From: a virus
IMG/VR virus record: IMGVR_UViG_3300034355_000250
Location: 1-37,815 of that record
DNA length: 37,815 bases
Strand: one strand, 5' to 3'
The notes below the pieces were generated by a model. It had not been told where the DNA came from and did no database searches. It worked only from the letters and a program-made list of their open reading frames with translations. Each line of letters opens with the position of its first letter. Within the stretch, counting starts at the first letter, position 1. Of this stretch, positions 22,405-37,815 are shown piece by piece. A program made the position numbers and the translations under genes.

Positions 22405-22617
22405 ATGCCCGACGAAGCCTGCCGCCTTGCTAAAGTAGAACAGCGCATTGATGCACTAGAAGAAGTGTTTGAAGACAGAGGGAAAAAGCTAGACGCTATC
22501 ATAGCCGCGCTTGACGAAATGAAAACCGAGCAAACGCGTTACAAAGGCTTTATTGGAGGCATCGTATTTACCGTTGGAGCGATATTTTCTTTTATTGCTT
22601 GGTGGACGAGTAAATAA
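22405..22617 (+). CDS. XhlA-like small membrane protein (lysis)
   Basis: A 70-residue protein with a coiled coil (LAKVEQRIDALEEVFEDRGKKLDAIIAALDEMKTEQ) and then one membrane segment GFIGGIVFTVGAIFSFIAWW near the C-terminus. This layout is that of XhlA-type holin accessory proteins. GAGGT lies upstream and its stop overlaps the next ATG. It precedes two further membrane proteins and the lysozyme. Confidence 0.75.
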   Translation: MPDEACRLAKVEQRIDALEEVFEDRGKKLDAIIAALDEMKTEQTRYKGFIGGIVFTVGAIFSFIAWWTSK

Positions 22618-22886: not shown

Positions 22887-23128
22887 TGGACGCCGATGCA
22901 ATCGCTAAATATATTAACCAGTATGGATTCCCAATTATCGCTGCTGGCGGTATGGGTTATATTGTCTATTTTGTATGGCTTTGGGCAACCACCGTCGTAA
23001 AACCTATCCTGCAAGAAGCCACAGACGCGCTAATTGAGCTAATCGACCAAGTACGGGTGCTAGATAATGACATGATAAGACTGACGCAAAAACTGACCAC
23101 TATTCTATTGCTACGGGAAAAGAAATGA
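22886..23128 (+). CDS. Small membrane protein, holin candidate 2 (paralogue)
   Basis: An 80-residue paralogue of the previous protein: QYGFPIIAAGGMGYIVYFVWLWATT parallels its membrane segment and the helical tail (LIELIDQVRVLDNDMIRLTQKL) parallels its IIKQLDKRVTAMSCDITKID. It overlaps the lysozyme gene as ATGA. Two such proteins could form one hetero-oligomeric holin or a holin and antiholin pair. Confidence 0.72.
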   Translation: MDADAIAKYINQYGFPIIAAGGMGYIVYFVWLWATTVVKPILQEATDALIELIDQVRVLDNDMIRLTQKLTTILLLREKK

Positions 23129-23580
23129 AGATAGGTGAAAAAGGGTTAGCCCTAATTAAAGAATTTGAAGGTTGTAAGCTGCAAAGCTATAAATGCCCAG
23201 CAGGTGTTTGGACGATTGGCATAGGCTCAACGCGCTACGCTGATGGCAGTCCAGTGAAAGCAAATCAAGCGCTGCCAGCAGAAGCGGCGGCTATGCAGCT
23301 ATTAGCGCATACGGTAGGCGCGTATGAACATACGGTTAACGCTATTGGTGTGCCGCTTACGCAAAACCAGTTTGACGCGCTTGTTAGCCTCTGCTATAAC
23401 ATTGGCAGCGGGAATTTAATTTCGTCAACGCTTGTTAAGATGTTAAAAGCAGGCAATGATAAAGCAGAAGTAGCAAAGCAGTTTTTAAGATGGAACAAGG
23501 CCGCCGGTAAAGAATTAGCCGGCTTAACGCGACGCAGAAATGCCGAAGCAGAATTATTTTTAGGACACGATGATGAATAA
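23125..23580 (+). CDS. Endolysin, GH24 lysozyme
   Basis: A 151-residue T4-lysozyme-type muramidase. The catalytic signature is Glu (in KEFEGCK), eight residues, Cys (in YKCP), five residues, Thr (in WTIG), the E-C-T variant of this family. Later motifs NQFDALVSLCYNIGSG and GLTRRRNAEAELFL are also standard. No signal peptide or signal-anchor segment is present, so it depends on a holin to reach the wall. It cleaves the MurNAc-GlcNAc bond of peptidoglycan. Confidence 0.95.
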   Translation: MKIGEKGLALIKEFEGCKLQSYKCPAGVWTIGIGSTRYADGSPVKANQALPAEAAAMQLLAHTVGAYEHTVNAIGVPLTQNQFDALVSLCYNIGSGNLISSTLVKMLKAGNDKAEVAKQFLRWNKAAGKELAGLTRRRNAEAELFLGHDDE

Positions 23581-30463: not shown

Positions 30464-32383
30464 ATGCCTATACTTTACATTGATTTTGAAACAAGAAGCG
30501 AATGTGACTTGCCTAAGCACGGCGTTTACAATTACGCGCAAGACTTGACCACTGACGTGCTGTGTATGTGCTACGCCTTTGATGATGGCAACGTGCAGAC
30601 ATGGACGCCTGATATGCCGTTTCCTGACAACGTTCGCAATCACGTTGGTGAAATACGGGCGCATAACGCCGCGTTTGAGCGTTTGATATTCTGGTACGTT
30701 CTACAAATAGATTTCAAGTTGGAGCAGTTTTACTGCACCGCTGTGCAAGCACGGGCAAATTGCCTTCCGGGCAGTCTTGAGGACGTTGGTCGCGCTATCT
30801 CTAGTGAGATGCGCAAAGACCACCGTGGCAAGATGTTAGTTAAGCAGTGCTGCACTCCTCCTTTTAACACCAAGCTGTTGCCTGAGCTTATCGAGTATTG
30901 CCGTCAAGACGTAAGAACCATGCGAGCAGTGTCGCAGTCGCTACGTCAGTTGACAAATGACGAGCTTGCAGACTATCACGTCAACGAGCGCATTAACGAC
31001 GCAGGTGTTCTCGTGGACGTTGACTTGTGCCGTGCCGCCATGCGCTACGCCGGTGTTGAGCTTGAGGAAATCCAATCTCGCGTCGTGGAGCTTACGGACG
31101 GTGCAATTAAGTCTGTTCGTTCACCGAAGATGCGCGAGTGGGTGCTTGAGCGCGTTGGTGAGTCTGCACGAGCGCTGATGTGGAATGGTGAGAAGTATTC
31201 TATCGACAAAAGCGTTCGCGCTAATTTGCTATTGATGGACGACCCTGAGGAAATTCCACCGCACGTTGCGGAGGTTATTCAGTGCGCGGATGACCTGTGG
31301 GCGTCGTCTGTGGCGAAGTTTAGCCGTCTGCTTTCTCTTGCAGATTTTGAAGACCATCGTGTGCGTGGTGCGTTTGTGTTCAACGGCGGGTCGGCAACTG
31401 GTCGAGCGTCGTCGTATGGTGCGCAGGTGCATAACTTCACGCGTAAATGCGCTAAAGAGCCACAGCGAGTGCGTGATGATATGGTCATAGGGCGTGACAT
31501 TGTTCCGGTGCATGGTAAGCGTGTGACGGACGTTTTAAAGGGTATGCTTCGCCCTGCGTTGATGCCTGCCGTCGGTAATGTTTTTGTGGTAGCAGATTGG
31601 GCGGGTATTGAAGCGCGTGTGACGCCGTGGGCGAGTTTGCAGCATGGCAGTGAGGATGTGCTTGATGTGTTTCGCAGTGGTGAGGACATTTACGTTCGCG
31701 CCGCTGCTGGTATCTTTAATCGTCCAATGGATATGATAACGCCTGACCAACGTCAGATTGGTAAGGTGGCTATTTTGTCGTGCGGCTATATGGGTGGCGC
31801 GGGCGCGTTTGGCGCGATGGGTAAAGCGTATGGTATCTCACTGCCTGAAGCTGAGGCTAAACGTACCGTTGACGCGTGGCGTCGCAGTAACTCATGGGCG
31901 GTGCAGTATTGGGGTGAGCTTGAGCGAGCGTATATGTGCGCCATGCGCCATAAAGGTCGTGAGTTTACCGCTGGTCGCGTGACGTATCTGTTTGATGGTG
32001 CGAATTTGTGGTACGCCCTGCCGTCTGGTCGGGTGCTATGCTATCCGTCAGCATATATTGAAGACGGGTCAGTATCTTACGCTAAGGCGGCGTGGAAACC
32101 CGCTGCTGATGCAGTCGAATGGCCGCGAGCTAGGCTATGGGCTGGACTCGCTTGTGAGAATATTACACAGGCGATTGCAAATGATTTACTTCGTGACGCT
32201 TTGCGTCGAATCGGGCATACTGTCGTGCTTCACGTTCACGACGAAATTGTGCTGGAAGTGAAAAAAGAAGACGCGGAAAGCGCCGCGCAAGACTTGGAAA
32301 CCGTGATGTGTAGCGCCCCTGCGTGGGCAGAAGGTCTACCCTTAGCGGTTGGTGTATCAACATTAGAGAGATATGGAAAATGA
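30464..32383 (+). CDS. DNA polymerase, family A, with 3'-5' exonuclease
   Basis: A 639-residue phage Pol A. Exonuclease motifs: YIDFETRSE (Asp7, Glu9), AHNAAFERL (about 66-74) and YCRQDVRTM (about 145-153). Polymerase motif A is VVADWAGIEARV (Asp about 378), motif B RQIGKVAILSCGYMGGAGAF (about 430-449) and motif C VLHVHDEIVLEV (near 590). It replicates the phage genome. ATG 30464 is the only start that keeps Exo I whole, so its odd upstream hairpin must be part of the leader. Its stop overlaps the ATG of the primase-helicase (ATGA). Confidence 0.96.
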   Translation: MPILYIDFETRSECDLPKHGVYNYAQDLTTDVLCMCYAFDDGNVQTWTPDMPFPDNVRNHVGEIRAHNAAFERLIFWYVLQIDFKLEQFYCTAVQARANCLPGSLEDVGRAISSEMRKDHRGKMLVKQCCTPPFNTKLLPELIEYCRQDVRTMRAVSQSLRQLTNDELADYHVNERINDAGVLVDVDLCRAAMRYAGVELEEIQSRVVELTDGAIKSVRSPKMREWVLERVGESARALMWNGEKYSIDKSVRANLLLMDDPEEIPPHVAEVIQCADDLWASSVAKFSRLLSLADFEDHRVRGAFVFNGGSATGRASSYGAQVHNFTRKCAKEPQRVRDDMVIGRDIVPVHGKRVTDVLKGMLRPALMPAVGNVFVVADWAGIEARVTPWASLQHGSEDVLDVFRSGEDIYVRAAAGIFNRPMDMITPDQRQIGKVAILSCGYMGGAGAFGAMGKAYGISLPEAEAKRTVDAWRRSNSWAVQYWGELERAYMCAMRHKGREFTAGRVTYLFDGANLWYALPSGRVLCYPSAYIEDGSVSYAKAAWKPAADAVEWPRARLWAGLACENITQAIANDLLRDALRRIGHTVVLHVHDEIVLEVKKEDAESAAQDLETVMCSAPAWAEGLPLAVGVSTLERYGK

Positions 32384-34656
32384 ATTTTATTACTTACTTG
32401 GAGCGTATCGCGCCTGAAGGCGAAAGTATCCTTTTGGTCAAACAAATTGCTAAAGATAACGGTCAGTTTGCATGGCCTGCTTATCTTCCTTCTCGATACG
32501 ACGGCAAAGGCGCGTGGTATGGCAATACCGCGTCGTTTATCACGTCACGTTTTAAAGATGGTAAACCGTCTGCGAGTGCGGGCAACTGCGAGTACGTTGC
32601 TTTCCTCGTGCTTGATGACATTGGCACCAAGAGTTTGCGTCCTCCTATCGAGCCGACATGGATAATGGAAACCTCACCGCAGAATTACCAGTGGGGCTAC
32701 ACGTTTGCTTTAGATGATATGCCAACTAAAGGTGAGTTTAGCGCCGCTATTAAAGCAATCGCTGACGCGGGCTATACTGACAGTGGCGCGATTAATCCCG
32801 TGCGTAATTTTCGCCTTCCTGCGTCAGTGAATTTGAAGCCTGACCGTGCGGCGTTTAAGTCTATCCTTGTTGAGTTTCACCCTGAGCGTGAATTTACGCT
32901 CGACCAAATTTGCTCGGCGCTTAACGTTCACCCGTCGGCGGCTGACACGGCGACAGTGCGCCCGATTGCTATCATCGACACAGGTAACGATGACGTGCTG
33001 GAGTGGCTATCTTCGCGTGGTGACGTGATGGAGTCCGCTAACGCTGAGGGGTGGGTTGGCGTTGTTTGCCCTAACCACGCTGAGCATACTGATGGTCAGT
33101 TGATGGGCAGATACCATCCGCTCAACCGCGCTTACTGTTGCTTTCATGGTCATTGCTCGTCGTGGGATAGCCGTGCTTACCTCGCGTGGGTAGCTGAGAT
33201 GGGCGGCCCTAAACATTCACATGGTCTTCGTGAAGAAATACTCGCGGAGGTGATGCACACCGCCATTAACAAACTCGAGCCCACTGATATGTTCAGCACT
33301 GACGCGGCGGCGGCTATCATTGCAGAAGTCGAGCAGAAGGAAATCGCACGGCTTGAAAAGGCGGAGTGGTATCAACGCTTTGCTTACGTCATGTCAGACG
33401 ATTCCTACTTTGATTTGCAAAACCGTCGTGAATTTTCACGTCAGACGTTCAACGCCGTGTTTCGTCATGTGCCGTGCAAAAGTATTCACTCTGACCGTAA
33501 GATAGAAGCCGCCATGAGCTTTGACGAGAACCGTCAGGTGATGGGCGCTAGAGTGCTGGCAGGTATCACCTTTGCCGCTGGTGACTCGGTAATTGCTATG
33601 CGTGATGGTGAATTGTATGGCAACCGCTGGCGTGATGCCCGCCCAGATTCATCTCGTGGCGGAAATTTGGGTGGCAATATATCCTTGTGGCTTGACCACT
33701 GTAAATCGCTTGTTCCAGACGAGCGTGAGCTGGAACACATTTGGGATTACATGGCGTTTAAGGTGCAGAATCCACGCGTTAAGATTAACCACGCAATTCT
33801 TCACGCCGGCGGTCAAGGTATTGGTAAGGATACGATGTATGCGCCGTTTATTTACGCCGTGTGCGGACCTCACTTGCGCAATTATTCGCTCATGTCTACT
33901 GACACCATTCAATCTGCGTGGGGTTATCATTTAGAAGCAGAGGTTATTGTTATTAATGAGCTTAAAGAAGCCGACAGCGCCGCGCGTAGAATGCTAGCCA
34001 ACAAACTCAAGCCTGTTATCGCCGCGCCACCTGAGATGCTATCCGTTAACCGTAAAGGCCTTGCCCCGTATAACCTTGTAAACCGTCTTGCCGTGCTTGC
34101 GTTCTCTAATGACCGTGTACCGTTGTCGCTTGAATCGGGTGACCGTCGTTGGTTTGCTACTTGGAGTACGGCGGAGCGTCTTGCGCCGCAATCAGCTACC
34201 GCTATATGGAAATGGTTTAATGACGGCGGTGGCTATGACCTTATCGCCAACTGGTTGTTCTTGCGTGATGTGTCGGCGTTCAATCCTGCTGCGCCTGCGC
34301 CTATGACAGACTTTAAAATGTCACTTGTGCAGAATAGTCTGTCCGCTGTTGAGTCGTCGCTTCTTGACATGATTACGCTGCGTATGGGTGAGTTTGCATC
34401 CGGTGTGATTGCCTCTCCCTTTCAAGCCATTTGTGAACGCGCCGCTATGTCGTTTGGCAGTAAACAATTTCCACCTGCTGCTTTGTTTCATGCACTTGAA
34501 GAAGCTGGGTGGGCTGATAAGGGAATGTGCAATTCGCGCTCGTCTAAGACTAAAAAACACATTTTCTGCGCACCTGAGTTTGCGCACATGAGCAAGTCTG
34601 CGCTGCGTGATATGGCAGAGCAAAAACCTGTTGCAAAAGTTGTAGCGATTAAGTAG
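32380..34656 (+). CDS. Primase-helicase (AEP-like primase, zinc finger, SF3 helicase)
   Basis: A 758-residue replication protein. The N-terminal third looks like a RepB-type archaeo-eukaryotic primase: FLVLDDIG (about 75-82), WIMETSPQNYQWGY (about 94-107) and NPVRNFRLPASVNLKP (about 139-154). A Cys/His finger follows (CPNHAEHTDG at about 230 and CCFHGHC at about 253-259). The SF3 helicase has Walker A HAGGQGIGKDT (about 475-485), Walker B VIVINELKEAD (about 522-532) and a later Arg-rich SGDRRWFATWS. The ATG at 32380 overlaps the polymerase stop. With the polymerase and the iterons it forms a plasmid-like initiation set. Confidence 0.92.
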   Translation: MNFITYLERIAPEGESILLVKQIAKDNGQFAWPAYLPSRYDGKGAWYGNTASFITSRFKDGKPSASAGNCEYVAFLVLDDIGTKSLRPPIEPTWIMETSPQNYQWGYTFALDDMPTKGEFSAAIKAIADAGYTDSGAINPVRNFRLPASVNLKPDRAAFKSILVEFHPEREFTLDQICSALNVHPSAADTATVRPIAIIDTGNDDVLEWLSSRGDVMESANAEGWVGVVCPNHAEHTDGQLMGRYHPLNRAYCCFHGHCSSWDSRAYLAWVAEMGGPKHSHGLREEILAEVMHTAINKLEPTDMFSTDAAAAIIAEVEQKEIARLEKAEWYQRFAYVMSDDSYFDLQNRREFSRQTFNAVFRHVPCKSIHSDRKIEAAMSFDENRQVMGARVLAGITFAAGDSVIAMRDGELYGNRWRDARPDSSRGGNLGGNISLWLDHCKSLVPDERELEHIWDYMAFKVQNPRVKINHAILHAGGQGIGKDTMYAPFIYAVCGPHLRNYSLMSTDTIQSAWGYHLEAEVIVINELKEADSAARRMLANKLKPVIAAPPEMLSVNRKGLAPYNLVNRLAVLAFSNDRVPLSLESGDRRWFATWSTAERLAPQSATAIWKWFNDGGGYDLIANWLFLRDVSAFNPAAPAPMTDFKMSLVQNSLSAVESSLLDMITLRMGEFASGVIASPFQAICERAAMSFGSKQFPPAALFHALEEAGWADKGMCNSRSSKTKKHIFCAPEFAHMSKSALRDMAEQKPVAKVVAIK

Positions 34657-34733: not shown

Positions 34734-34740
34734 AGCTATG

Positions 34741-35035
34741 AATAAAACGCCTTGAAAGATAGCAGAGTCCTTACTATAACTCTAAGCGCTTAGAGGTATA
34801 GTATAATGCGCGAAAGCGGGGAAACCTCGGTAAAGCCGGCAATTGCAAATCGATGTGTAATTGTTTGGAAGAAGTAACGGGCGTTTTATTGATAGTTAAT
34901 GCGTAGGCTGATATGCTATGGAACGGGGTAGAAGCCCAAAAGCCTAGTGGAGTGTTACTGTAGGAGTAACTATCTCGAAAGAGTAAGCGTGTGTTAAACA
35001 GCACCACAAGCCGGAGATTAGCACCGGCAACTATC
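34741..35035 (+). ncRNA. Candidate structured RNA, about 300 nt, unidentified
   Basis: No convincing gene lies here on either strand, yet many arms are complementary. Long-range: AATAAAACGCC (34741-34751) with GGCGTTTTATT (34880-34890), 11 perfect pairs; GATAGTTA (34891-34898) with TAACTATC (34967-34974), 8 pairs; TAGGCT (34904-34909) with AGCCTA (34941-34946). Local: a 15-pair hairpin at 34772-34803 with one mismatch; CGGGG-AAA-CCTCG at 34817-34829, or CGC-GAAA-GCG at 34809-34818; CAATTGC with GTAATTG (34840-34863); GGG/CCC around TAGAAG (34926-34937); CTC-GAAA-GAG (34974-34983); GTGTT/AGCAC (34991-35004); GCCGG/CCGGC (35010-35028). AACTATC at 35029 is a second partner for GATAGTT, so two states are possible. 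I could not assign it to group I or II introns, tmRNA or RNase P. Confidence 0.6.
34752..34780 (+). promoter_or_regulatory. Sigma-70-like promoter inside the RNA locus
   Basis: TTGAAA (34752-34757), 17 bases, TATAAC (34775-34780): five of six matches in each box. The -10 box lies in the left arm of the 32-base palindrome at 34772-34803, which would cover the start site, so the palindrome could be an operator. A perfect TATAAT is also present at 34802-34807 without a -35. If this promoter is used, the RNA would lose the 34741-34751 arm, so either a longer RNA starts upstream or the arm pairing is accidental. Confidence 0.5.
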
Positions 35036-35346: not shown

Positions 35347-35371
35347 AATAAAAAAGGCCCGTTAAGGCCTT
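35347..35371 (-). terminator. Second intrinsic terminator of the leftward operon
   Basis: Read leftward: AAGGCC, loop TTAACG, GGCCTT, then a run of T (the A-run at 35348-35353 on the plus strand). It backs up the terminator at 35389-35412. Confidence 0.75.
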
Positions 35372-35388: not shown

Positions 35389-35412
35389 TAAAAAAAGCGG
35401 ACTTTCGTCCGC
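35389..35412 (-). terminator. Intrinsic terminator of the anti-defence operon
   Basis: Read leftward: GCGGAC, GAAA tetraloop, GTCCGC and a run of seven to eight T. It lies nine bases after the stop of the 20-residue peptide gene. Strong stem, stable loop and T-run make the call firm. Confidence 0.9.
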
Positions 35413-35420
35413 CTTCTTGT

Positions 35421-35483
35421 TTAGTTTTCTAGTAGTATCGCCAGGACAGCGAATTTAACTAGAATTAGGAATATTATTATCAT
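35421..35483 (-). CDS. 20-residue hydrophobic membrane peptide
   Basis: ATG 35483 overlaps the stop of the 77-residue gene (ATGA) and the frame ends at TAA 35421-35423, just before a strong terminator. The peptide is almost all Ile, Leu, Phe and Val with one Lys (IIIFLILVKFAVLAILL), a single membrane helix. Place, coupling and terminator support a real gene. It resembles small toxic or regulatory membrane peptides only in form. Confidence 0.55.
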   Translation of the reverse strand: MIIIFLILVKFAVLAILLEN

Positions 35484-35713
35484 CTTTCAACCCCAAAAAA
35501 TTGAAGTATTGAAAATTGTATATCTCTAATGTCGTTTAAATCGTCGCTGTTTAAACCAAAATCCTCACAAAACAGCGTTTCGTTTAAATCGTCATAATAC
35601 CACTCACAAGTTAAACAATTTTCTAACTGTAAACGTAATTTTAAAGCAACGTTTACGCCGTAAAGATTTTCTATTTTATTAATGGCGTTTTTAATGTAGT
35701 CAATTGTAATCAT
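35480..35713 (-). CDS. Small acidic protein, anti-defence operon (77 aa)
   Basis: A 77-residue acidic protein (about a quarter Asp/Glu in the C-terminal half: WYYDDLNETLFCEDFGLNSDDLNDIRDI). ATG 35713 overlaps the preceding stop (TAATG) with AAGGTG upstream. High acidity beside ArdA raises the possibility of another DNA mimic, but this is inference. Confidence 0.7.
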   Translation of the reverse strand: MITIDYIKNAINKIENLYGVNVALKLRLQLENCLTCEWYYDDLNETLFCEDFGLNSDDLNDIRDIQFSILQFFGVER

Positions 35714-35949
35714 TATTGCACCTTTAGTATGTTTTGCTTATACGCGCGAATATAACCTTTAAGTCTATCCATGTTTTTACTATAAACAATTAAGCCACAC
35801 GGCAAAACGCTCGATAAGATAGTGACGCCGTTATAGTTTGCGCCGTTGATATATTCGCCCCTATAGAATACCGACCATGAACAACTAATAATATTGGTTG
35901 AGCTGCGCCGGTATGCTAAGGTGTTTTGATAGCGTTTTGATATTTTCAT
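35713..35949 (-). CDS. Small basic protein, anti-defence operon (78 aa)
   Basis: A 78-residue protein with a basic C-terminus (VYSKNMDRLKGYIRAYKQNILKVQ) and a Ser/Tyr-rich front (SSTNIISCSWSVFYRGEYINGANYNGVTIL). Pattern suggests a small alpha/beta fold. Function not recognised; it sits in a run of unknown genes behind ArdA. Confidence 0.68.
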   Translation of the reverse strand: MKISKRYQNTLAYRRSSTNIISCSWSVFYRGEYINGANYNGVTILSSVLPCGLIVYSKNMDRLKGYIRAYKQNILKVQ

Positions 35950-35953
35950 TTTA

Positions 35954-36172
35954 TTAATTCCAGGTATCGACGTAAATTTTTACGCCTTTAATAATGATAT
36001 AGCACAACGCTACATTAGAATAGCAAGTCGCGTAAACGCGATATTCTTTGTTACCTACCAGTGCTTTTCTACCAGTGTTTAGCTTTTTACCGTAACCGGT
36101 CGCCGTTTGCATTAACCCGCGCGTGTGATACCACATAGGGGCGTCAATAAATTCTAGGTATATAGTCGTCAT
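35954..36172 (-). CDS. Small protein, anti-defence operon (72 aa)
   Basis: A 72-residue protein (TIYLEFIDAPMWYHTRGLMQTATGYGKKLNTGRKALVGNKEYRVYATCYSN). The TGYGKKLNTGRK phrase followed by a YRVYATCYSN strand and an IIIKGVKIYV strand suggests a compact beta fold of unknown function. ATG overlaps the preceding stop (TAATG). Confidence 0.68.
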   Translation of the reverse strand: MTTIYLEFIDAPMWYHTRGLMQTATGYGKKLNTGRKALVGNKEYRVYATCYSNVALCYIIIKGVKIYVDTWN

Positions 36173-36438
36173 TAGTTGTCTACCCCATACTCAATAGCAA
36201 ACAAGGGCCGGCGCGTAGAACGTTCTATAATAACGATATTATATTGGTCGTCATCAATTGCGCATTTACCCGCGCTTTTATCAGTTAAAAAACCGTTATC
36301 ACGAAAATATTTTAGTAGTTTTCGCGCGTTCCAGTGTATTGCATCGGCGTCAATATCTCCCGCGTCATACCACGCGTTCCAAGTGTAACCGTCGCATTCG
36401 CGCCACGCGTCAATTGATAAAACTCTATATGTTTTCAT
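36172..36438 (-). CDS. Small protein after ArdA (88 aa)
   Basis: An 88-residue protein with many aromatic and acidic residues (SIDAWRECDGYTWNAWYDAGDID, then ARKLLKYFRDNGFLTDKSAGKCAIDDDQYNIVIIE). AAAGG precedes ATG 36438. The pattern is typical of small accessory proteins found with antirestriction genes on mobile elements, but I cannot name a family. Confidence 0.7.
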   Translation of the reverse strand: MKTYRVLSIDAWRECDGYTWNAWYDAGDIDADAIHWNARKLLKYFRDNGFLTDKSAGKCAIDDDQYNIVIIERSTRRPLFAIEYGVDN

Positions 36439-36519: not shown

Positions 36520-37002
36520 TTACCAGTTATTAGAAAAATAATGGCCTTTTGATTCTACATAGTCAAACATTAACGTTTTAGCGGCAACTTGCCAGTCAAC
36601 ATGGCAAAATGGCCATTGTTCACTAATGTCATTTAAGTATCCGCACTGGTCGGCCATATCGTAGGCAAAATCACTATCACTATCATATTGACCTTGATAC
36701 GCGTCGATAATTGAATCGAGTGGTATCTCACAATCAAGCCCCGCATCAATGACGTACTTGTTATCAGATAAACACGCGTTAACGTAATAATAGACTTCTT
36801 GCATATCGATACATTCATGGCAATAGTTTTTGTGTATGTCATCAAAATCCTGAAACATCAATTCAGGGTCAATTTCATCATTGTGCAATTCCTTGCACGC
36901 GTCGATAAATTGTTCCGCGTCGATATAATCGGTTAATGTTAGCCACGCGCCGGCGATTGACCCGTTGCTATATTTCGCATACGTTCCAACGTAAATTTTC
37001 AT
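36520..37002 (-). CDS. ardA: ArdA-family antirestriction protein
   Basis: A 160-residue, very acidic protein beginning KIYVGTYAKYSNGSIAGAWLTLTDY, then FIDACKELHNDEIDPELMFQDFDDI. This is the classic ArdA opening (IYVxTYxxYxxG, GxWxxL, and the ELHxDExDPELMFQD block). ArdA proteins are elongated DNA mimics that bind and block type I restriction enzymes when foreign DNA enters. Length matches the family. It is read leftward from a promoter near 37250 and leads a run of unknown small genes. Confidence 0.92.
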   Translation of the reverse strand: MKIYVGTYAKYSNGSIAGAWLTLTDYIDAEQFIDACKELHNDEIDPELMFQDFDDIHKNYCHECIDMQEVYYYVNACLSDNKYVIDAGLDCEIPLDSIIDAYQGQYDSDSDFAYDMADQCGYLNDISEQWPFCHVDWQVAAKTLMFDYVESKGHYFSNNW

Positions 37003-37066: not shown

Positions 37067-37195
37067 TTATTTGCTTAATGTAATACCTGATTGAGTGAAG
37101 TTAACGCGGTATTGCATCGCGTTGGATAAAACAATTGTAATTAACGCGACAATGGCAATTGACGCGAGTAAAGATAAAGATAATGTTTTAATCAT
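37067..37195 (-). CDS. Small membrane protein, first gene of the anti-defence operon (42 aa)
   Basis: A 42-residue protein with one long hydrophobic segment (LSLSLLASIAIVALITIVLS) and a short tail (NAMQYRVNFTQSGITLSK). AGGATTG lies nine bases before ATG 37195, and a strong promoter lies upstream, so it is the first gene read. It is either membrane-anchored or has a signal sequence. Confidence 0.7.
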   Translation of the reverse strand: MIKTLSLSLLASIAIVALITIVLSNAMQYRVNFTQSGITLSK

Positions 37196-37248: not shown

Positions 37249-37276
37249 ATTATAAAGCAATAAAATTTAAATGCAA
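37249..37276 (-). promoter_or_regulatory. Promoter of the anti-defence operon
   Basis: Read leftward: TTGCAT (37271-37276), 16 bases, TATAAT (37249-37254), a consensus -10 and four-of-six -35. It is the strongest-looking promoter in the window and lies about 50 bases before the first gene, as expected for genes needed on entry. Confidence 0.8.
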
Positions 37277-37602: not shown

Positions 37603-37815
37603 ACTATCAGGGCAGGCAGCAGGGCAGGCAGCAGGGCAGGCAGCAGGGCAGACAGCAGGGCAGACAGCAGGGCAGACAGCAGGGCAGACAGCAGGGCAGA
37701 CAGCAGGGCAGACAGCAGGGCAGACAGCAGGGCAGACAGCAGGGCAGACAGCAGGGCAGACAGCAGGGCAGACAGCAGGGCAGACAGCAGGGCAGACAGC
37801 AGGGCAGACAGCAGG
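37563..37815 (+). CDS. N-terminal part of the (Gly-Arg-Gln-Gln)n repeat protein, open at the right contig end
   Basis: The frame after TAG at 37551-37553 is open to the end of the window. The only start codon before the array is TTG 37563, with no strong ribosome site. It would give about 16 residues ([15 protein letters not shown]) and then GRQQ units. It is in the same translation frame of the repeat as the left-end piece. The N-terminal codons coincide with two iterons, so the start is doubtful; the coding case is stronger for the left-end tail. Confidence 0.35.
37609..37815. repeat. 12-bp tandem repeat array, right contig end
   Basis: About 17 copies. The first three read AGGGCAGGCAGC and the rest AGGGCAGACAGC, a single-base change that then spread through the array. 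Directly joining the contig ends drops two bases from the 12-bp register, as expected when an assembler breaks inside a repeat. The AGGCAG of the first copies equals the core of the iterons next to it. Confidence 0.97.

Follow-up and report, generated by a model that had tools for sequence, protein, structure and literature searches.

What does a frame of only 20 codons encode when it closes a phage operon, immediately before a transcription terminator? The window analysed here is an IMG/VR virus record, 37,815 bases long, from a tailed phage that encodes a terminase, a family A DNA polymerase and a SNF2-type helicase. One of its operons runs leftward, toward a convergent primase gene, in the order 42-aa gene, ArdA, 88-, 72-, 78- and 77-aa genes, and the 20-aa gene last (Table 1). 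We asked whether this last frame is a gene, how widely it is kept, and what its product may do.

Gene layout in the window

Fourteen of the 20 residues of the peptide are Ile, Leu, Phe or Val (17 when Ala and Met are added), the polar residues are Lys10, Glu19 and Asn20, and mean Kyte-Doolittle hydropathy is 2.5. The initial annotation, which did not state the strand, had described a near-pure Ile/Leu/Phe/Val peptide with ATGA coupling and a terminator right after the gene. All three traits were confirmed, on the minus strand. The junction with the 77-aa ORF reads GAAAGATGATAA, in which the TGA of that ORF shares ATGA with the ATG of the peptide. Downstream, the TAA is followed by ACAAGAAG (8 nt), the terminator hairpin and TTTTTTTATT.

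Two further elements were observed in the window. An optional element of about 300 nt (34740-35035) lies between the primase and the operon end; it is matched in 7-10 of 46 close loci, its flanks in 45, and it folds better than shuffled sequences on both strands (z -2.85 and -2.54), with no Rfam family matched. Beyond the operon start, tandem 12-base repeats (CCTGCTGTCTGC) occupy 37630-37815, to the contig end. Other short repeats are hinted at by the ORF listings of loci L075, L095 and L102.

Table 1. Features of the leftward operon, the facing primase gene and the holin-like gene of the window
Feature	Coordinates	Strand	Evidence or occurrence
Holin-like 70-aa protein gene	22405-22617	+	PHROGs profile search
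Convergent primase gene, the anchor of the locus search	32380..34656	+	PHROG 1156 DNA primase, E 5.2e-15; PF19263
Second terminator-like hairpin	35354..35371	-	Sequence scan
Intrinsic terminator hairpin GCGGAC-GAAA-GTCCGC + TTTTTTT	35397..35412	-	Stem varies among relatives, hairpin and position kept
20-aa hydrophobic micropeptide gene, MIIIFLILVKFAVLAILLEN	35421..35483	-	ORF list; ATG start, TAA stop
ATGA overlap of upstream stop and peptide start, predicted translational coupling	35480..35483	-	Sequence; same offset in 66/162 loci
77-aa gene, exchangeable	35480..35713	-	In 15/45 close relatives
78-aa gene, exchangeable	35713..35949	-	In 4/45 close relatives
72-aa gene, PHROG 3436 (unknown function)	35954..36172	-	In 23/45 close relatives
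88-aa gene, exchangeable	36172..36438	-	In 17/45 close relatives
ArdA antirestriction protein	36520..37002	-	PF07275, E 6.1e-19; PHROG 2059, E 7.3e-19; in 13/45 close relatives
42-aa protein with one hydrophobic segment, first operon gene	37067..37195	-	In 4/45 close relatives
Candidate promoter TTGCAT-16-TATAAT	37249..37276	-	By eye; -35 box too weak for promoter scan

Conservation and selection in close relatives

Related loci were collected by way of the primase, so that the choice of loci would not itself favour those with the peptide. Among the best 80 of 252 loci found with the primase, the enzyme is 90-99% identical in 47 and 56-61% identical in 33. A frame broken in close relatives had been named in the initial annotation as the observation that would speak against a gene; instead, when the window is counted in, 47 close contigs extend 600 nt or more beyond the primase, and 46 of them keep the 20-aa frame. 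The sole exception, L102, is uninformative, its contig ending after 796 nt of repeats, and L108, which ends at the primase, stands outside this count. The 46 sequences comprise 39 distinct DNA versions that encode 20 distinct peptides, with a mean pairwise dN/dS of 0.064 (NG86; in some groups synonymous changes approach saturation). In a wider set, partly chosen by pattern, 40 DNA versions encode 21 peptides, all of length 20. Residues 3, 5, 6, 8, 10, 11, 14, 15, 18 and 19 are invariant in this set, so that Lys10, Phe5, Phe11 and Glu19 are unchanged across 40 distinct DNA versions, and the exchanges (I/L/V/M, A/T or N/S/K) are confined to nine positions.

Selection acts on the protein. In the 40 of 46 loci whose primase end aligns without gaps, pS, the synonymous difference, is 0.54 for the peptide gene and 0.26 for the final 200 codons of the primase; synonymous sites are thus freer in the peptide than in the primase, which argues that a protein is kept and not an overlapping RNA. 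Mean identity is 84% in the peptide gene, compared with 40% in the 63 nt preceding it. A perfect stem begins 2-9 nt past the peptide stop in all 46 close loci, and the stems themselves differ among loci (GGGCGG, GCGGAC, GCGGCC, AACCCGC and others). The 20-aa ORF is a genuine, strongly conserved phage gene. A conserved helical face, with the variable residues gathered on one side, was considered and rejected, since with relaxed-pattern relatives included the periodicity was not significant (p 0.18 by entropy, 0.35 by number of alternatives and 0.39 without residue 20); the helical-wheel test thus gives no support to a specific partner surface on the peptide. Relaxed-pattern matches in L052, L053, L061, L063, L066, L067 and L070 were judged by eye to be due to chance.

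A constant gene in an exchangeable operon

The 20-aa gene is present in 45/45 close relatives, whereas the other operon genes of the window occur in 4-23/45. These counts come from tblastn against 45 close loci, 42 of them with at least 1,700 nt upstream; the remaining three, with less upstream DNA, can lower the counts of the other operon genes only slightly. The leftward operon is therefore exchangeable except for its last gene, the 20-aa one, which is constant. The protein encoded directly upstream has 77, 74, 65, 54, 31, 25 or about 321 aa, among others. The protein of about 321 aa (L027:2380-3342) contains a beta-clamp domain (PF02767, E 4.1e-12), and its gene is coupled to the 20-aa gene; a coupled beta-clamp-like protein was also seen by eye in L044 and L047. 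In seven loci (L025, L029, L035, L039, L042, L043 and L050) the gene directly before the 20-aa gene encodes a protein of 31 aa whose C-terminal part is hydrophobic (MKNFYDVVMGSIA...). ArdA is found in only 13/45 close relatives, so an anti-defence role for the peptide is not implied by its neighbours.

A Shine-Dalgarno core was detected in 5/46 close and 31/116 distant loci, and in 125/162 loci the peptide starts within -16 to +4 of the upstream stop, 66 of the 162 having the ATGA-type offset of the window. The combination of a rare Shine-Dalgarno core with frequent coupling suggests that the peptide is made by re-initiation and in a modest dose. Isoleucine is encoded by ATA in 79% of cases in the close-group peptide genes, compared with 17% in nine genes on the plus strand of the window and only 22% in the distant peptide groups. 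Neighbours among 119 ORFs of representative distant operons include a DnaA-type HTH protein, a beta clamp, RusA and nucleotide kinases, from which the operon looks early or middle; ArdA, in the window, is an early-type neighbour too.

The same slot in distant phages

A strict detector was set to find ATG ORFs of 17-24 aa with mean hydropathy of at least 2.0, a start at an offset of -16 to +4 from an upstream ORF's stop, and a terminator within 70 nt. When the window and the 80 loci were searched on both strands (1,783 strand-kb), matches were obtained in the window, in 44/47 close and in 15/33 distant loci; all lie past the primase 3' end on the strand opposite the primase, and none elsewhere. 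In L079 the peptide is present, starting outside the coupling range. With two distant primases as queries, 113 further loci were collected (1,607 strand-kb; two of them repeat contigs already used, and L251 and L264, whose contigs end inside the primase, were left out of the run), and full matches were found in 54/113, all in the slot. Over a total of about 3.4 Mb, strands summed, the arrangement was found only at the primase-facing slot.

A looser test, for a hydrophobic micro-ORF no more than 900 nt past the primase, was run on contigs of at least 600 nt with one entry per contig, loci repeating an already used contig being omitted. It was positive on the opposite strand in 137/183 contigs and on the same strand in 6/183, with a mean of 2.25/183 in dinucleotide shuffles. 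A chance ORF in conserved DNA, for which the short length is the only argument, is refuted by this excess (137/183 contigs vs 2.25 expected) and by the codon-level selection, and we assign it a negligible probability. Among the 46 negative contigs, 26 have, 84 nt beyond the primase, a GTG-started ORF of 21-22 aa, L216 and L220 have a slightly less hydrophobic ORF in the slot, and in L113 a hydrophobic micro-ORF lies 1,766 nt away. A fuller count, made post hoc and without a shuffle control, gives 165/183 contigs with a slot peptide, L102 having been removed from the 137; besides L102, no counterpart was found in 17/183 testable contigs.

Representative members have primases that share 50-62% identity with that of the window, and the slot peptides of these distant phages are other hydrophobic sequences of 16-24 aa, mostly 19-20 aa. 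The 162 loci yield 97 distinct peptides (L102, whose two matches lie in a repeat, was dropped), of which 66 have 20 aa and 15 have 19 aa; at the penultimate position 60 carry D and 25 carry E. Mean pairwise dN/dS in other peptide groups is 0.143, 0.187, 0.169, 0.216 and 0.116, with the near-saturation noted above applying to some groups, and is undefined for the W-[EK]-L group. Close and distant peptides, which may have a common ancestor, agree in the slot, the length class and the C-terminal acidic residue, in sequences that are very short and hydrophobic. As layout is shared more than sequence, interaction with lipid or with itself fits the distant peptides as well as a partner does. In MW202483, the nearest named phage (primase 49% identical), no hydrophobic micro-ORF adjoins the primase. 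A second type of hydrophobic ORF, of 21-23 aa and beginning M[LI]IFLLPI[GA]YA..., was seen in L114:8364-8429, L116:8245-8310 and L117:3468-3539, inside the operon and upstream of the terminal slot.

All viral contigs were also scanned for frames in which M is followed by 16 mostly hydrophobic codons, one more hydrophobic codon, and Asp and Leu before the stop. Of 41 stretches found, 28 lie in loci with the same primase type, convergent in all 28. The other 13 comprise ten with MT[IF]SL...VFDL peptides, two that were judged by eye to be chance matches (L275 and L311), and L278, which ends too soon. Among the MT[IF]SL...VFDL loci, the facing protein is a Prim-Pol primase in L277 (PF09250, E 3.9e-32) and a Toprim/AAA protein in L293 and L299; in L283, L289, L304 and L309 its start resembles, by eye, that of the L277 protein. 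Since the slot peptide is kept opposite other primase types, it belongs to the leftward operon and not to one primase. The operon ends that face unrelated primase modules (L277, L293 and L299) suggest module exchange near a shared terminator. The coupled, operon-end, membrane-type micropeptide gene with its terminator that the initial annotation had pictured is strongly supported, and is far more general than the single case described there.

Proposed function and alternatives

It was established computationally that the gene is real, that its position is constant, that selection acts on its protein, and that the product has a hydrophobic 20-aa design. The sequence does not discriminate among the three roles offered by the initial annotation, namely a membrane-active toxin, a regulator of a host membrane enzyme, and a trigger or blocker of abortive defence. 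As to what the product does, the sequences lead us to favour, tentatively, a trans-acting, low-dose, single-pass membrane micropeptide with a host membrane target over its rivals. Such a peptide would presumably insert into the inner membrane; it would be translated mainly by re-initiation from the upstream gene, with the terminator ending the transcript, and would be produced at a modest level each time the operon is switched on, probably early. Acting in trans, within the membrane, it might pack against a host inner-membrane protein through the invariant Lys10, Phe, Ala and Leu residues of this lineage, and the packing could adjust the host envelope in infection, for example by blocking entry of a second phage or by inhibiting a membrane enzyme. 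That the target is a host protein is a guess.

By analogy with IbsC, the peptide itself may perturb the inner membrane, through a pore or proton leak, and so shut down or re-tune the host, its low dose being ensured by the position at the operon end. The length class and hydrophobicity are those of IbsC, and the distant peptides keep the layout rather than the sequence; however, the dN/dS of 0.064 in the close lineage and the invariant Lys10, Phe5, Phe11 and Glu19 are tighter than bulk hydrophobicity needs, and the free synonymous sites give no sign of an antisense antitoxin. We regard such a depolariser as unlikely, though worth keeping in mind. It is improbable that the peptide times lysis by tuning the phage holin in the manner of a pinholin or antiholin. 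It does have a single hydrophobic segment, and the phage does have a holin-like protein beside an ORF (23125-23580) that is lysozyme-like by eye, but the peptide gene lies outside the lysis cassette, in a separate convergent operon with ArdA.

The nascent hydrophobic chain, translated just ahead of the terminator, might serve in cis, tethering the operon mRNA to the membrane or aiding termination, the released peptide being inert. The gene's place before the terminator and its usual coupling speak for such a role. Against it, many hydrophobic chains could do this, yet exact residues (Lys10 and the acidic penultimate one among them) are conserved, and the terminator stems vary freely; we think this quite improbable. 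A reading that we consider very improbable is that of a widespread, as yet unnamed class of phage micropeptides which serve to fix the early operon at the inner membrane, or else its mRNA or the neighbouring replication module. There the hydrophobic chain translated last would be inserted as the transcript ends beside the convergent primase gene, anchoring the infection centre at the membrane; the sequence would drift between lineages while the slot, length and terminal acidic residue stay fixed.

Whatever its action, nearly all members of a large group of environmental phages retain this gene of 20 codons, which usual annotation would miss because of its length. Most genes of the operon are swapped in and out, and so constant a gene probably matters in every infection. 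The small size eases synthesis, mutation and testing, and the 97 natural variants form a ready structure-function series. Should its target be a host membrane protein, the peptide would point to a weakness that the hosts share.

Comparison with known systems

The 20-aa peptide has no match among Pfam or PHROGs profiles; profile libraries rarely contain families as short as 20 aa. At the gathering score no Rfam match was found within the window, and permissive matches at the terminator region (STnc40, E 0.015, far below the gathering score) were read as generic terminators. The pattern of the close-family peptide gave 0 matches in the bacterial genome collection. Relatives of the primase occur there in only five records, all metagenome bins (two betaproteobacterial, one Mucilaginibacter, one Armatimonadetes and one uncultured bacterium), and host assignment is therefore weak. 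A literature search of partial coverage, extending to sources other than the 2022 survey of Fremin, Bhatt and Kyrpides, returned no paper on such a peptide. In that survey small phage genes were reportedly predicted in bulk; very short conserved phage ORFs are common to both studies, and the peptide family may be among those predicted.

Holins and pinholins are likewise small hydrophobic phage membrane proteins. The 20-aa peptide differs from them in being shorter and in belonging to another operon, in a phage with a separate holin-like gene. We know of no holin as short as about 20 aa.

The closest likeness of design is to the Ibs-type toxins. Short type I toxins of E. coli, including IbsC, are described as very hydrophobic peptides of 18-51 aa with a predicted single membrane helix, easily missed in annotation (PMC7667032, PMC8309996). 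According to one of these accounts, membranes are depolarised by IbsC, a peptide of 19 aa, and a core of 15 aa is enough if 10 or more of its residues are hydrophobic (PMC8309996). The phage peptide, a putative helix, fits this size and hydrophobicity class, and the likeness is one of design only. Unlike the toxin genes, its gene stands last in a polycistronic operon and is coupled upstream; the peptide has a penultimate acidic residue and a constant genomic slot. The strand opposite the peptide gene has only weak promoter-like matches. If the lipid bilayer is the target, the phage peptide would extend IbsC-like peptides to phages.
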